Shown here one piece after another: positions 41,731 through 45,949 of a stretch of DNA of 64,000 nt. The DNA is from Mucilaginibacter aurantiaciroseus (lineage in GTDB: Bacteria > Bacteroidota > Bacteroidia > Sphingobacteriales > Sphingobacteriaceae), in assembly GCF_024055595.1 (NCBI RefSeq), contig NZ_JAMXOF010000001.1, positions 1,116,001-1,180,000 of the forward strand, written 5' to 3'. Within the stretch, counting starts at the first letter, position 1. Every line of letters starts with the position of its first letter. The notes beneath the pieces were generated by a model, which worked only from the letters and a program-made list of their open reading frames with translations, had not been told where the DNA came from and searched no databases. The translations under genes and the position numbers were made by a program.

Positions 41731-42699
41731 TTAAACCTGCATCTTATTTACCTGGCTGGGCAAAAAGCCAAACTTCCTTTTAAAGGCGGCTGTAAAATGG
41801 TGGGGGTTTTTGTAGCCTATCAGTTCTGCCACTTCGCTAACGCTTTTATCATCCTGTAAAAGGGTGTGAGCGCTATCCATACGTACATTATACAGGTAGC
41901 CAAAAACCGTATTACCAAACAGGGCTTTAAAGCCTTTTTTAAGCTTAAAATCATTTAACCCTGTTTTGCGGGCAAGCTCTATAAGCGAGCAGGGCGTTTG
42001 CATGTTTTGATTGATGTAGGCCTTTGCTTCCTGTAGACGGGCAATATCTTCGCGGTTAAAGCCTTTGGTTGGTGCTTTGTCGCTATCGGCCTGTTGTAAT
42101 TGCAGGGAGAGTAGTTCCAGGATCTTCGACTCTAAAAAGATCCGGCGGATATAGCCTGTTTGTTCGGCCTCAATAATTTCTTTAATAATTGCATGCGGCC
42201 TGGTATGTCTGTAATTGCCATTGGTAACCAGGGTAAAAGTTTTCCCTGCGTTGGTATCTGGCTTGTCTTTTAAAAGTTCCTTCCCAATAAGCTTACTTAT
42301 GAATTTACGGGTAAGGCAAATGGTAAAAATGTTAGCATGTTGCTCAAATACCAGGTCGGTGTTTAAAGATCGGGTAAAAAAGGTATGGTGACTGCCATCT
42401 TTTAAACTCAGTTGTTTAACCCCGTCAAAACGCGCGTTCAACTCTCCCTTAAGTACAAAATTCATTATCCAGCAAAAGCTATCGCACTGCAAATTTACGG
42501 CGCATGGCTGTTTGGGCTTGATGGCGGTATGGCAAATGCAAACACCCTCAAACCATAGATCGCTAATGTTGAATTTACCCCAGTTTTCTGATAAAGCGGT
42601 ATTCCTTTCCTCATAACAGCCGATGCCTGCAAAATTGGCAGGGTAGGCCAGTCTTATTGTTTTTGCTTTGGATGCCTGTGAAGTAAAGGTGAGGTTCAT
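41731..42699 (-). CDS. AraC-family regulator of the haem locus
   Basis: 322 residues. The unique N-terminal domain is like PchR-type regulators, and the C-terminal double HTH (about 220-320) reads CSLIELARKTGLNDFKLKKG followed by VSEVAELIGYKNPHHFTAAF and KRKFGFLPSQV. It is divergent from the haem receptor gene, and two identical 15-bp repeats (42702-42716, 42723-42737) sit between them. PchR relatives sense a siderophore or haem and activate the adjacent receptor; I infer the same here. Confidence 0.87.
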   Translation of the reverse strand: MNLTFTSQASKAKTIRLAYPANFAGIGCYEERNTALSENWGKFNISDLWFEGVCICHTAIKPKQPCAVNLQCDSFCWIMNFVLKGELNARFDGVKQLSLKDGSHHTFFTRSLNTDLVFEQHANIFTICLTRKFISKLIGKELLKDKPDTNAGKTFTLVTNGNYRHTRPHAIIKEIIEAEQTGYIRRIFLESKILELLSLQLQQADSDKAPTKGFNREDIARLQEAKAYINQNMQTPCSLIELARKTGLNDFKLKKGFKALFGNTVFGYLYNVRMDSAHTLLQDDKSVSEVAELIGYKNPHHFTAAFKRKFGFLPSQVNKMQV

Positions 42700-42701
42700 A
42701 A

Positions 42702-42737
42702 AATCCGTTTGGCGTTGTTTTCAATCCGTTTGGCGTT
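42702..42737. promoter_or_regulatory. Tandem 15-bp direct repeats, likely AraC binding sites
   Basis: AATCCGTTTGGCGTT occurs at 42702-42716 and 42723-42737, a start-to-start distance of 21 bp (two helical turns), the layout of paired AraC-family half sites. It lies 2 bases before the regulator ATG and 59 before the receptor ATG. A partial palindrome TTTGGCGTTAACCAAA extends the second copy. Confidence 0.75.
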
Positions 42738-42795
42738 AACCAAACTGCTAATCTTACCGCAAATTTGCATCATTATTTTTAATTAGTCTAAATAA

Positions 42796-44886
42796 ATGAA
42801 ATATATTTTCGTCTGCCTGCTCGCTAACATCAACTTAAGTGCTCAAGCTCAGCAGGTAGATACATTATCTGCCGATACTACAAAAGCCAAAAAGTTAAAA
42901 GAAGTTGTTGTAACTGCTACCCGTACCGCACGTAACCTAATGCAATTGCCTTTACCGGTAACCACCATCAGCAATAAAGAAATTAAGAACCGCGGCATGG
43001 TGCGCCTTAACGAGATACTGAACGAACAAACAGGTTTAAGCGTTTTACCTGATGCCCACGGGCAGGGCATCCAGATTCAAGGGTTTAGTCCGGATTATAC
43101 CATGATCATGCTGGATGGGATGCCGCTGATAGGCCGTTCCACGGGCATCCTCGACCTGAGCCGAATCACCACAAACAACATTGATAAAATAGAAATAGTA
43201 AAAGGCCCGGTATCCTCGCTTTACGGGAGCGAGGCTATGGCGGGTGTTATCAATATCATATTGGCCACGCCACAATTGGGTGGTTCGGGGAGTATTGCCG
43301 CGCGATATGGCACTAACAAGAACGCGGATATCTCCTTAAATGGCGGTTATGCTACCGACAAGTTATCCTTATACGGCTTTGTGAACCGATACAGCAGCGG
43401 CGGGTATTCGCTTGTGCCGCAATCCGGCAGCGCTACGGTATCGCCATTTGTAGGCTATACTTTAAATGGTAGGGTGGGTTATAAATTTAGCGATGCCACA
43501 AACTTTAAGGTACAGGTACGTAATTACACCAATACCGCCGATAATAACTTTTTGGTAGATAACGACCGTATAACGGGCGATGGTACCGAAAAAGACCTGA
43601 ACATGTCTGCCGGGTTAACACATAAATTTTCGGATAAGTTTACGGGTGATGCAAGGCTTTACCACGCGGGTTACAGCACCAAATCGTTGCTGATAAATAA
43701 CACCGATGGCTCTGTTTACGACCAGACCTTCTTCGACCAAAACTTTAACCGAGCCGAGTTGCAGGGCGATTATAAGATCATCAACAGCCTACGCTTTACC
43801 GGCGGCGTTGGCGGCCAAACCGAGAGTGTTGTAGCCACGAGGTATAACGATAAAAAAAACTTTCAATCCGGTTACGCTTACGGGCAAGCCGACTGGACGC
43901 CGTTTAAAAGGTTAAACATTATTACCGGTGGCCGTTTTGATACGCACAGTGTTTACCGCTCGCAATTTAGCCCTAAGCTGGCAGCAAGCTACCAATTGAG
44001 CGAAAAGTTTGTGATACTGGCTTCAACCGGTAAAGGCTACAAAGCGCCCGATTTTAGGCAGCTGTACTTAAACTTTACCAATGCGGTGGTTGGCTATAGT
44101 GTGTTTGGTACCGAGGAAGCCGTTTTTGAGTTGAAAAAGTTGCAAGATGCGGGACAAATACAAAGCATATTAATAGACCCGGCAACCCTGCGCACCCTAA
44201 ATGCAGAAAGTTCTACCGCTTACAATTTTGGTTACCGTTATCGCCCCATAAATGGCTTGATGTGGACGGTTAACATGTTCCGCAATAACATTCGCTATCT
44301 GATAGACTCTGAACCTATCGCCATCAAAACCAACGGTCAATCGGTATTTTCTTACCTAAACCTTCAGAATGTATATACGCAAGGTGCCGAGACGGATGTT
44401 ACCTACAACTTTTCAAAGCACTGGACAGTAGCCGGCGGCATGCAATTCCTGCAAGCTTATGACCAAAGCGTATTAGACAAAATTAAAGAAGGGCAGGTGT
44501 TTGGTAACCATCAGGCTTCCCGCGAAACAGTAAAGGTTACCAAGAGCCAGTATGGCGGGCTACTAAACCGGTCTAAATACATGGGTAACGCACGTATTGC
44601 TTATCAGGATGATAAAACGGGCATAATTACATCTTTACGTGCTATTTACCGCGGCCGCTATGGTTTCTCTGACGTAGATGGAAACGGAATCGTAAACCGC
44701 GACGATGAGTATGTGAAAGGCTACGTGCTGTTTAATGCATCGGTATCAAAAATGTTCCTGAAAAACCAGTTGCGCCTGCAGGTAACGGGAGAAAACCTGG
44801 GCAATTATAAAAACCATGGTGCTATAAGCAACCTACCGGGCACATTGGTTTACGCAGGCATCACCTATAATTTTAACAAACCATAA
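42796..44886 (+). CDS. TonB-dependent haem receptor (HmuR-like)
   Basis: 696 residues. Signal peptide (to about AQAQQ, residue 20), TonB-box-like segment KKLKEVVVTATRTARNL, plug domain with IQGFSPDYTMIMLDGMPL and IEIVKGPVSSLYGSEAMAGV, then the barrel, ending GITYNFNKP. There is no N-terminal carboxypeptidase-like domain, unlike the 30-33 kb receptor. Haem is inferred mainly from the HmuY gene 28 bases downstream. Its length fits haem/siderophore receptors (650-750). Confidence 0.9.
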   Translation: MKYIFVCLLANINLSAQAQQVDTLSADTTKAKKLKEVVVTATRTARNLMQLPLPVTTISNKEIKNRGMVRLNEILNEQTGLSVLPDAHGQGIQIQGFSPDYTMIMLDGMPLIGRSTGILDLSRITTNNIDKIEIVKGPVSSLYGSEAMAGVINIILATPQLGGSGSIAARYGTNKNADISLNGGYATDKLSLYGFVNRYSSGGYSLVPQSGSATVSPFVGYTLNGRVGYKFSDATNFKVQVRNYTNTADNNFLVDNDRITGDGTEKDLNMSAGLTHKFSDKFTGDARLYHAGYSTKSLLINNTDGSVYDQTFFDQNFNRAELQGDYKIINSLRFTGGVGGQTESVVATRYNDKKNFQSGYAYGQADWTPFKRLNIITGGRFDTHSVYRSQFSPKLAASYQLSEKFVILASTGKGYKAPDFRQLYLNFTNAVVGYSVFGTEEAVFELKKLQDAGQIQSILIDPATLRTLNAESSTAYNFGYRYRPINGLMWTVNMFRNNIRYLIDSEPIAIKTNGQSVFSYLNLQNVYTQGAETDVTYNFSKHWTVAGGMQFLQAYDQSVLDKIKEGQVFGNHQASRETVKVTKSQYGGLLNRSKYMGNARIAYQDDKTGIITSLRAIYRGRYGFSDVDGNGIVNRDDEYVKGYVLFNASVSKMFLKNQLRLQVTGENLGNYKNHGAISNLPGTLVYAGITYNFNKP

Positions 44887-44914
44887 AAATCAAATACACA
44901 CTTAAACAAACAGC

Positions 44915-45535
44915 ATGAATAAATTTAAAACCCTTGCATTAGTATTATTTAACAGCGCCGCTTTATTGGCAACATCTTGTACAAAAGAAAACGACGCTAC
45001 ATCAGAACCGGTGAAAGCTACAACCCTGAGCGTTAACACTGTTATCGATTTAGACGGCAGTAAAGGTGCCGTTTATTATAGCCTTAGCACCAACAAACAA
45101 GTTTTAGGTGATGACATCACGGCGGGAAAATGGGATATCCAATTTTCTGACAGAAACATATTTGTTAACGGAGGCACTTCGGGCATCGGTGCAACGCAAG
45201 CACAAATTGTGAACAGTATTTTTAATGATGTAAATACGGCGCCAACCACTGGTTATAAGACTGATGCGATAGGTGTAAATGCAATACTTAGTAATGATTG
45301 GTCTATTTATACTAACACCAATAGTGTACCAAATCACGCGGTGCTTATGGTTCCGGGTAAGATTATCGTTGTCAAAACAAGTTATGGTAAATATGCCAAG
45401 CTTGAAATGAAAAGCTATTACAAAGGCAACCCGGACATTACCACGCCTGCCTTTGCCGATCTGACTACCAGGCCTGCATCATCATACTTCACCTTTAGGT
45501 TTGCTTACCAGGCTGATGGAAGCACAACTTTATAA
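44915..45535 (+). CDS. hmuY: HmuY-family haem-binding lipoprotein
   Basis: 206 residues. Lipobox LLATSC with Cys22 lipidated. The body fits the HmuY all-beta fold: AVYYSLSTNKQVLGDDITAG followed by KWDIQFSDRNIFVNGGTSG, and late KLEMKSYYKGNP then FTFRFAYQADGST. In Porphyromonas HmuY takes haem from host proteins and passes it to HmuR. Haem-ligating His residues of that protein are not all visible; His is rare here, so other ligands (Met, Tyr) may be used. Same operon as the receptor. Confidence 0.85.
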   Translation: MNKFKTLALVLFNSAALLATSCTKENDATSEPVKATTLSVNTVIDLDGSKGAVYYSLSTNKQVLGDDITAGKWDIQFSDRNIFVNGGTSGIGATQAQIVNSIFNDVNTAPTTGYKTDAIGVNAILSNDWSIYTNTNSVPNHAVLMVPGKIIVVKTSYGKYAKLEMKSYYKGNPDITTPAFADLTTRPASSYFTFRFAYQADGSTTL

Positions 45536-45634
45536 TAGCTAAATAAGTAATTAAAAATAATAAGTCCTGTTTTTGCCCGTGGTTTTATAGAGCGTTTGCC
45601 ACGGGCATGCAGGGACCAATTAAATATCACCATT

Positions 45635-45949
45635 ATGTGCGAAACCAGGATTCTAACCCAAAATGGTAACACATTGATAAGCCACTGTGCCGAATGCGGA
45701 ATGTTAAATATATGGCACCAAAATTTGATGCTGTGTTTTACCCCAGATCAGTTTATGTCGTTCCACCGCTTTACGCAGGACATGGACTTTGAGGACAGGA
45801 GTTTCCCATTCCCGGATGGGAGTGAGCGATTGGTTCTTTGCACGCCAAACCGTGATATTAACCTTGTGTTTACCGATACCGAATGGGAGGACTTTAACGC
45901 AGGCATGCTGGAGGCATTATACATGATGGAAGTGTATAATACAATTTAA
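45635..45949 (+). CDS. Small cysteine-containing protein, DUF6686-like
   Basis: 104 residues from the ATG at 45635; the upstream 13 codons look non-coding. N-terminal CETRILTQNGNTLISHCAEC contains a CxxC that may bind metal, followed by NLMLCFTPDQFMSF; the C terminus is acidic. Small proteins like this accompany hmuY in other Bacteroidota genomes as far as I recall. Function unknown. 99 bases after hmuY. Confidence 0.7.
   Translation: MCETRILTQNGNTLISHCAECGMLNIWHQNLMLCFTPDQFMSFHRFTQDMDFEDRSFPFPDGSERLVLCTPNRDINLVFTDTEWEDFNAGMLEALYMMEVYNTI

Follow-up and report, generated by a model that had tools for sequence, protein, structure and literature searches.

The window analysed here is a stretch of 64,000 nucleotides from Mucilaginibacter aurantiaciroseus, a soil bacterium (contig NZ_JAMXOF010000001.1, positions 1,116,001 to 1,180,000 of the forward strand), and the locus of interest occupies positions 41731 to 45949 of it. 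A regulator gene of the araC family lies there divergently from the gene of a TonB-dependent receptor, which is followed by hmuY, and the 96 bp between the divergent genes (42700-42795) make up the control region. The features are the following:

41731-42699, minus strand: araC-family regulator gene, 322 aa (PF12833, AF2 model, structural alignment)
42702-42716, plus strand: distal operator half-site AATCC-GTTTG-GCGTT (conserved in 44 distinct promoters)
42723-42737, plus strand: proximal operator half-site AATCC-GTTTG-GCGTT (second repeat at the 21-bp period; the TTTG of the -7 element follows after 26 bp)
42759-42768, no strand assigned: palindrome GCAAATTTGC holding the probable -7 element CAAATTTG (42760-42767; identity 0.95 in 44 promoters)
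42773-42795, plus strand: 23-bp near-palindrome TTATTTTTAATTAGTCTAAATAA, probable iron-repressor box (abuts the receptor ATG; recurs in the genome)
42796-44886, plus strand: TonB-dependent outer-membrane receptor, 696 aa, probable haem receptor (PF00593/PF07715)
44915-45535, plus strand: HmuY-family lipoprotein, 206 aa, probable haemophore (PF14064, profile matches, structure model)
45635-45949, plus strand: DUF6686 protein, 104 aa (PF20391 with 33 bits, synteny)

The operon and its regulator

The receptor matches PF00593/PF07715 in Pfam, is followed directly by hmuY in the window and is accompanied by hmuTUV-hemS in relatives. The sequence-only reading had called it HmuR-like: it is indeed a TonB-dependent receptor, but the likeness to HmuR is loose, with the haem-receptor models TIGR01785/01786 remaining below their cut-offs. 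The assignment of the next gene to HmuY holds (PF14064 with 43.8 bits against a cut-off of 27). A profile search with this protein matched 8b6a, 3h8t (HmuY) and 8b61, and its structure model, which is of modest confidence (pLDDT 66.9), matched at E<0.01 HmuY-family structures only. H141 is found in all of 18 orthologues and M165 throughout the first 8, neither residue mapping reliably onto the known haem ligands. In many relatives HmuT, HmuU, HmuV and HemS are encoded directly downstream, and the HmuV of relatives exceeds the cut-off of the NCBIfam model 'heme ABC transporter ATP-binding protein'; no HemS was found in the genome of M. aurantiaciroseus itself. Judging by these neighbours, by the HmuV score and by the exclusive match of the HmuY model to its own family, the receptor-HmuY operon reads as haem-related. 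The DUF6686 gene, which may or may not be a member of the operon, follows hmuY in several species and stays beside araC in M. pallidiroseus after loss of the receptor.

The regulator consists of a cupin-like sensor (residues ~1-208) and a DNA-binding domain with two HTHs (~216-319), the latter matching PF12833 with 67.5 bits over a cut-off of 33.6, which confirms that it was rightly taken for an AraC regulator. In its AF2 model (pLDDT 86.9) the C-terminal domain aligns with AraC-type DNA-binding domains at Z scores of 13-15.7 (VIA-align), and the sensor aligns with solved sensor domains at 9.7-11.8 (BgaR 11.8, ExsA 11.2, AraC 10.3); no Pfam sensor family was reached by the N-terminal part. None of the 25 NCBIfam matches listed is a PchR or YbtA model, and none of those 25 reaches its cut-off. 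The mean identity of orthologues to the protein of the window is 65% in the DNA-binding domain and 32% in the sensor, and hardly any variation is seen in the recognition segments GLNDFKLKKGF and GYKNxHHFTxAFKK; thus the conserved operator tracks the conserved DNA-binding domain. No histidine of the sensor is conserved in 36 aligned rows, and Cys54, Cys76 and Cys128 are present in only 20-24 of the 36; the search for a conserved sensor ligand that would allow direct haem sensing thus found none.

Elements of the control region

The 15-mer AATCCGTTTGGCGTT occurs in two perfect copies on the plus strand with a start-to-start distance of 21 bp, and only 2 bp separate the distal copy from the araC ATG: both the period and the position almost on the regulator start codon are as the sequence-only reading had them, although the -7 element and the iron box of the same region were overlooked there. 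The conserved parts of each half-site are box A (AATCC) and box B (GCGTT), which stand 10 bp apart and enclose five more variable bases. Such an AATCC-N5-GCGTT half-site has the layout that would be expected if the two HTHs of one AraC monomer entered successive major grooves. The pair stands alone in its genome. A scan of the window with 3 mismatches gave 7 matches in all versus 3.1 expected, those beyond the pair being near background; a third copy with 0-1 mismatch was not found in the 3.93-Mb genome, nor was a third, O2-like site. At 2 mismatches the genome gives 20 matches in all, similar to the 17 of the reversed-pattern control. A wider regulon based on these single sites was rejected on account of this frequency and of the unrelated genes in or near which the inspected ones lie.

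The promoter consensus of Bacteroidota is TAnnTTTG at -7 with TTTG near -33 (PMC7366714). The octamer CAAATTTG matches this consensus only as xAxxTTTG, and no TTTG is found upstream of it at the right distance for a -33 element. If the octamer is centred at -7, the receptor +1 is estimated near 42771 and the araC +1 near 42756, which would place the repeats at about -69/-55 and -48/-34 of the receptor promoter. The gap between the end of the proximal repeat and the TTTG is 26 or 27 bp in all in-register promoters. The octamer is palindromic, CAAATTTG, in 37 of the 40 promoters that araC shares with a receptor in divergent orientation, and in none of the four without an adjoining araC, which carry CACTTTTG and CATATTTG, and the TTTG on the receptor strand is kept in all promoters. 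This association (Fisher p = 2.6e-4, ignoring shared ancestry) suggests that araC and the receptor share a single palindromic -7 element, read leftwards for the one and rightwards for the other.

Near-palindromes like TTATTTTTAATTAGTCTAAATAA gave 25 strand matches in the genome versus 5 for the reversed control. Copies precede PepSY_TM, DUF6607, hemA, TBDR+PepSY (two boxes) and an imelysin pair, and one lies near ferritin. Since the 23-bp box recurs before other iron and haem genes, an iron-dependent repressor of the Fur or DtxR family probably binds there, and proteins of both families are encoded in the genome; the box could also be the site of some other regulator. A published iron-box consensus for Bacteroidota was not found in the literature searched. 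Two of these copies touch on other genes. The sequence before hemA (glutamyl-tRNA reductase) lies ~144 bp ahead of the called start (C2:419816-419838) and suggests iron control of haem synthesis. The DUF6607 gene (L217:4808-5756) has its box ~9 bp before the ATG in this genome and is found just after hmuY in relatives (L084:8812-9735), inside the hmu operon of some, so this unstudied family is probably tied to iron or haem.

Conservation and relocation of the operator

We scanned 150 genomes of the genus with the spaced two-box pattern and found it at 43 places in 40 genomes, while the reversed pattern, used as the control, was found at none. Among 44 distinct promoters (at most 2 mismatches in the boxes) the repeat period is 21 bp in every one. 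The mean pairwise identity is 0.85 and 0.86 for the half-sites, 0.56 for the 6-bp linker between them, 0.36 for the 22-bp spacer after the proximal site, 0.95 for the -7 element and 0.93 for the 23-bp box, and the drifted spacer thus serves as an internal control against plain relatedness. The araC orthologues of relatives are 33-76% identical overall, and all divergent ones carry the pair at 21 bp; the operator accompanies every full-length divergent orthologue, down to a sensor identity of ~20%. Relatives that keep araC and lack the repeats, the case that would have spoken against the earlier interpretation of the pair as an AraC dimer site, did not turn up in a check of the divergent orthologues. 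That interpretation is strongly supported by the pair and its spacing being kept across relatives, and by comparative criteria the pair is an evolutionarily constrained operator and functional DNA. The distance from the operator to the araC ATG varies between 2 and 7 bp across aligned loci, and therefore the spacing constraint is to the receptor promoter.

Beyond the genus, Parapedobacter and Sabulibacter have the sites as well. Those of Desertivirga are more degenerate; there the pair keeps the 26-bp gap seen in the others, and an iron-box-like sequence lies upstream rather than downstream. A class-wide scan outside the genus gave 4 matches; the three inspected were all without receptor context and were discarded. 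The G083 match, with one mismatch, was likewise rejected as a true operator, having neither an adjoining receptor of these types nor an iron box. The araC of M. gossypiicola (L118:8001-8936) has an in-frame TGA at codon 47 next to an intact operator and is either a pseudogene or a sequencing error.

Rearranged loci serve as natural experiments. In M. pallidiroseus and M. polytrichastri araC has no neighbouring receptor, and a second operator pair stands elsewhere, 5' of a remote TBDR2+HmuY2 operon. These remote operons encode another receptor type and a HmuY-family lipoprotein of ~455 aa, have no araC in the stretch examined, and show the customary spacing of -7 element and 23-bp box. The genomic search for the 15-mer that had been proposed as a way to define the regulon therefore gave a divided result: no other copy in the genome of M. 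aurantiaciroseus itself, but a second one at a remote receptor-HmuY operon in two relatives. Beside the araC of M. pallidiroseus the receptor start codon is destroyed, and the operator, the -7 element and the box persist there. A replaced receptor in M. agri is immediately preceded by a second pair, which lies in the same intergenic region as the first, and in Mucilaginibacter sp. JRF araC stands at the 3' end of the operon with a degenerate operator still at the receptor promoter. Together with the Desertivirga arrangement, these cases indicate that the operator follows the receptor promoter and not the araC gene.

The araC-TBDR2 region of M. agri contains two complete sets of operator, -7 element and iron box 196 bp apart, with an apparent relic receptor start after the first set, and looks like a receptor replacement that brought its own promoter copy. 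At TBDR2 loci (e.g. L076:7772-9139) the HmuY match of the 455-aa lipoprotein is stretched, profile positions 4-157 being spread over residues 163-449. By its sequence and context this protein appears to be a larger HmuY type, the partner of a different receptor.

A proposed switch, its alternatives and known systems

Considering the anatomy of the region, its conservation and spacing, its phyletic coupling to araC and the copies in trans, we infer that the 96-bp region is likely an AraC/XylS-type activator switch for the haem operon, subject to an iron repressor and probably to autoregulation. Each 15-bp repeat would bind one AraC monomer, with box A and box B taken by one HTH each, and the two sites in the same orientation, two turns (21 bp) apart, would hold a head-to-tail dimer. 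As the proximal site stands in for the missing -33 element, 26-27 bp before the TTTG, the activated dimer would most likely contact RNA polymerase and so turn the receptor operon on. An iron-loaded repressor would bind the 23-bp box, which by this estimate covers about +3 to +25 of the start region, so that expression would need both low iron and the signal of AraC. The palindromic -7 element would also fire leftwards for araC, which would put the iron box at the -33 region of araC and the AraC sites inside the araC leader, where AraC would probably limit its own synthesis. Such self-repression is plausible: the distal site is next to the araC ATG, and M. pallidiroseus has kept the operator at araC after losing the receptor start codon, although these cases are few and phylogenetically non-independent.

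One could argue that AraC mainly represses the two divergent promoters and is released by its ligand, as the sites lie between the two promoters, adjoin the araC ATG, and persist at araC in M. pallidiroseus after loss of the adjacent receptor. However, they lie upstream of the receptor promoter core and not over it, the fixed 26-27 bp without a -33 element is the geometry of a class II activator, and remote copies stand only at receptor operons, with equal spacing to the -7 element; we consider a mainly repressing AraC improbable. The place of the repeats directly 5' of the araC start codon would also suit an element acting in RNA, a translational or leader element of the araC mRNA. This is very improbable: the repeats stand at no fixed distance from the ATG, the half-site is built like a DNA site, with two boxes one turn apart, and the two copies before receptor operons without an adjoining araC, at equal distance to the -7 element, led us to reject it.

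A different question is which protein binds. The DNA-binding domains are near-invariant across the family and siblings at siderophore-type loci have similar half-sites, so that another AraC paralogue, or several siblings, might occupy the operator beyond the product of the adjacent gene alone. Against this, the M. aurantiaciroseus genome has one such operator, the operator coincides genus-wide with this orthologue, and the single outside match (G083) has neither promoter context nor a receptor, which leaves such additional binders little likelihood. Finally, most loci come from one genus, and the conservation could in principle reflect the shared ancestry of young, closely related loci without any function. 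The sites are 85% identical, whereas the spacer stands at 36% and the sensor at ~20-30%, and sites are also present in Parapedobacter and Sabulibacter and, more degenerate, in Desertivirga; mere ancestry is already contradicted by the spacer control and its probability is negligible.

For the activator switch, haem or a haem-derived signal would be the inducer, yet haem is no more than a candidate for this role: the sensor sequence is hypervariable, and the receptors next to siblings that have this operator type are not haem receptors. Siblings with like half-sites are adjoined by TBDR+PepSY genes in Parapedobacter and by siderophore-interacting-protein genes in Flavobacterium. The operator goes with the DNA-binding domain, and the inducer is not readable from it. 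In Flavobacterium microcysteis and F. endophyticum (L129, L138) the sibling araC is divergent from a siderophore-interacting-protein gene (family match from L129), the half-sites end in GCGTA or ACGTA at 21 bp, and the box is TTATTTAGAATCAATCTAAACAA. More tentatively, the region may be a portable two-input cassette, in which the AraC dimer and the iron repressor act on a shared palindromic -7 element. Two different receptor/HmuY types would have been swapped or moved with their own cassette copy while the AraC sensor diverged freely, and a fixed operator code would thus serve different inducers across species; we regard this as possible rather than likely.

The half-site code, the geometry and the target promoter could be read from comparative data alone, with gene relocations standing in for experiment, and the comparative case for an AraC/XylS-type haem-operon switch with probable iron repression appears unusually clean. 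The model offers a testable form of ligand- and iron-gated haem uptake in environmental Bacteroidota, and AATCC-N5-GCGTT can be used to predict where this AraC subfamily acts in other genomes, some siderophore-type loci included.

Related loci are hmuYRSTUV of Porphyromonas gingivalis (PMC10434189) and hfpRY of Flavobacterium psychrophilum (PMC9331221), both iron-repressed and both with a TonB receptor and a HmuY-family lipoprotein as here. The regulators known for them are CdhR or a presumed Fur, and no AraC (PMC10434189, PMC9331221). The present locus differs in that the receptor precedes hmuY and that relatives have the HmuTUV ABC transporter and HemS in place of a CobN-like HmuS set: neither here nor in the relatives examined is the receptor followed by an ORF of CobN size, and the genes found downstream are HmuTUV/HemS or others. 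In the literature searched we found no paper on the AraC/HmuY pair and no description of an AraC-type regulator or operator for a HmuY-type haem-uptake locus. Dual control by a Fur box and AraC repeats is established for YbtA of Yersinia and PchR of Pseudomonas (PMC8725597), which resemble our case in having an AraC-type regulator beside a TonB receptor system and control by both an iron repressor (probable here) and AraC. Those regulators sense siderophore complexes, whereas here a haem operon with HmuY is served, and homology of the sensor to theirs cannot be shown beyond the common AraC fold.

The closest parallels in geometry are two classical activators. E. coli AraC acts at araI1-I2 of araBAD, two head-to-tail half-sites with a 21-bp spacing next to the promoter, is encoded divergently and regulates its own gene; the Pm repeats of XylS lie at -70/-56 and -49/-35; and both proteins switch their operons on. 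With E. coli AraC our system shares the 21-bp head-to-tail half-sites, the divergent araC and the sensor fold class (Z ~10), and it differs in its compact intergenic region of 96 bp, with no O2-like third site found. At Pm, XylS recognizes two direct repeats of 15 bp, in which box A lies on the 5' side and box B on the 3' side, one box for each HTH of a monomer (PMC5481539). Like XylS at this promoter of the Pseudomonas putida TOL plasmid, the regulator described here belongs to the AraC/XylS family and has two 15-bp direct repeats upstream of the polymerase site, at estimated positions (-69/-55 and -48/-34) one base pair from those of Pm. The boxes, however, are TGCA/GGTA there and AATCC/GCGTT here, and instead of benzoate degradation the putative switch would govern a haem operon from a Bacteroidota -7 promoter with an added iron box.
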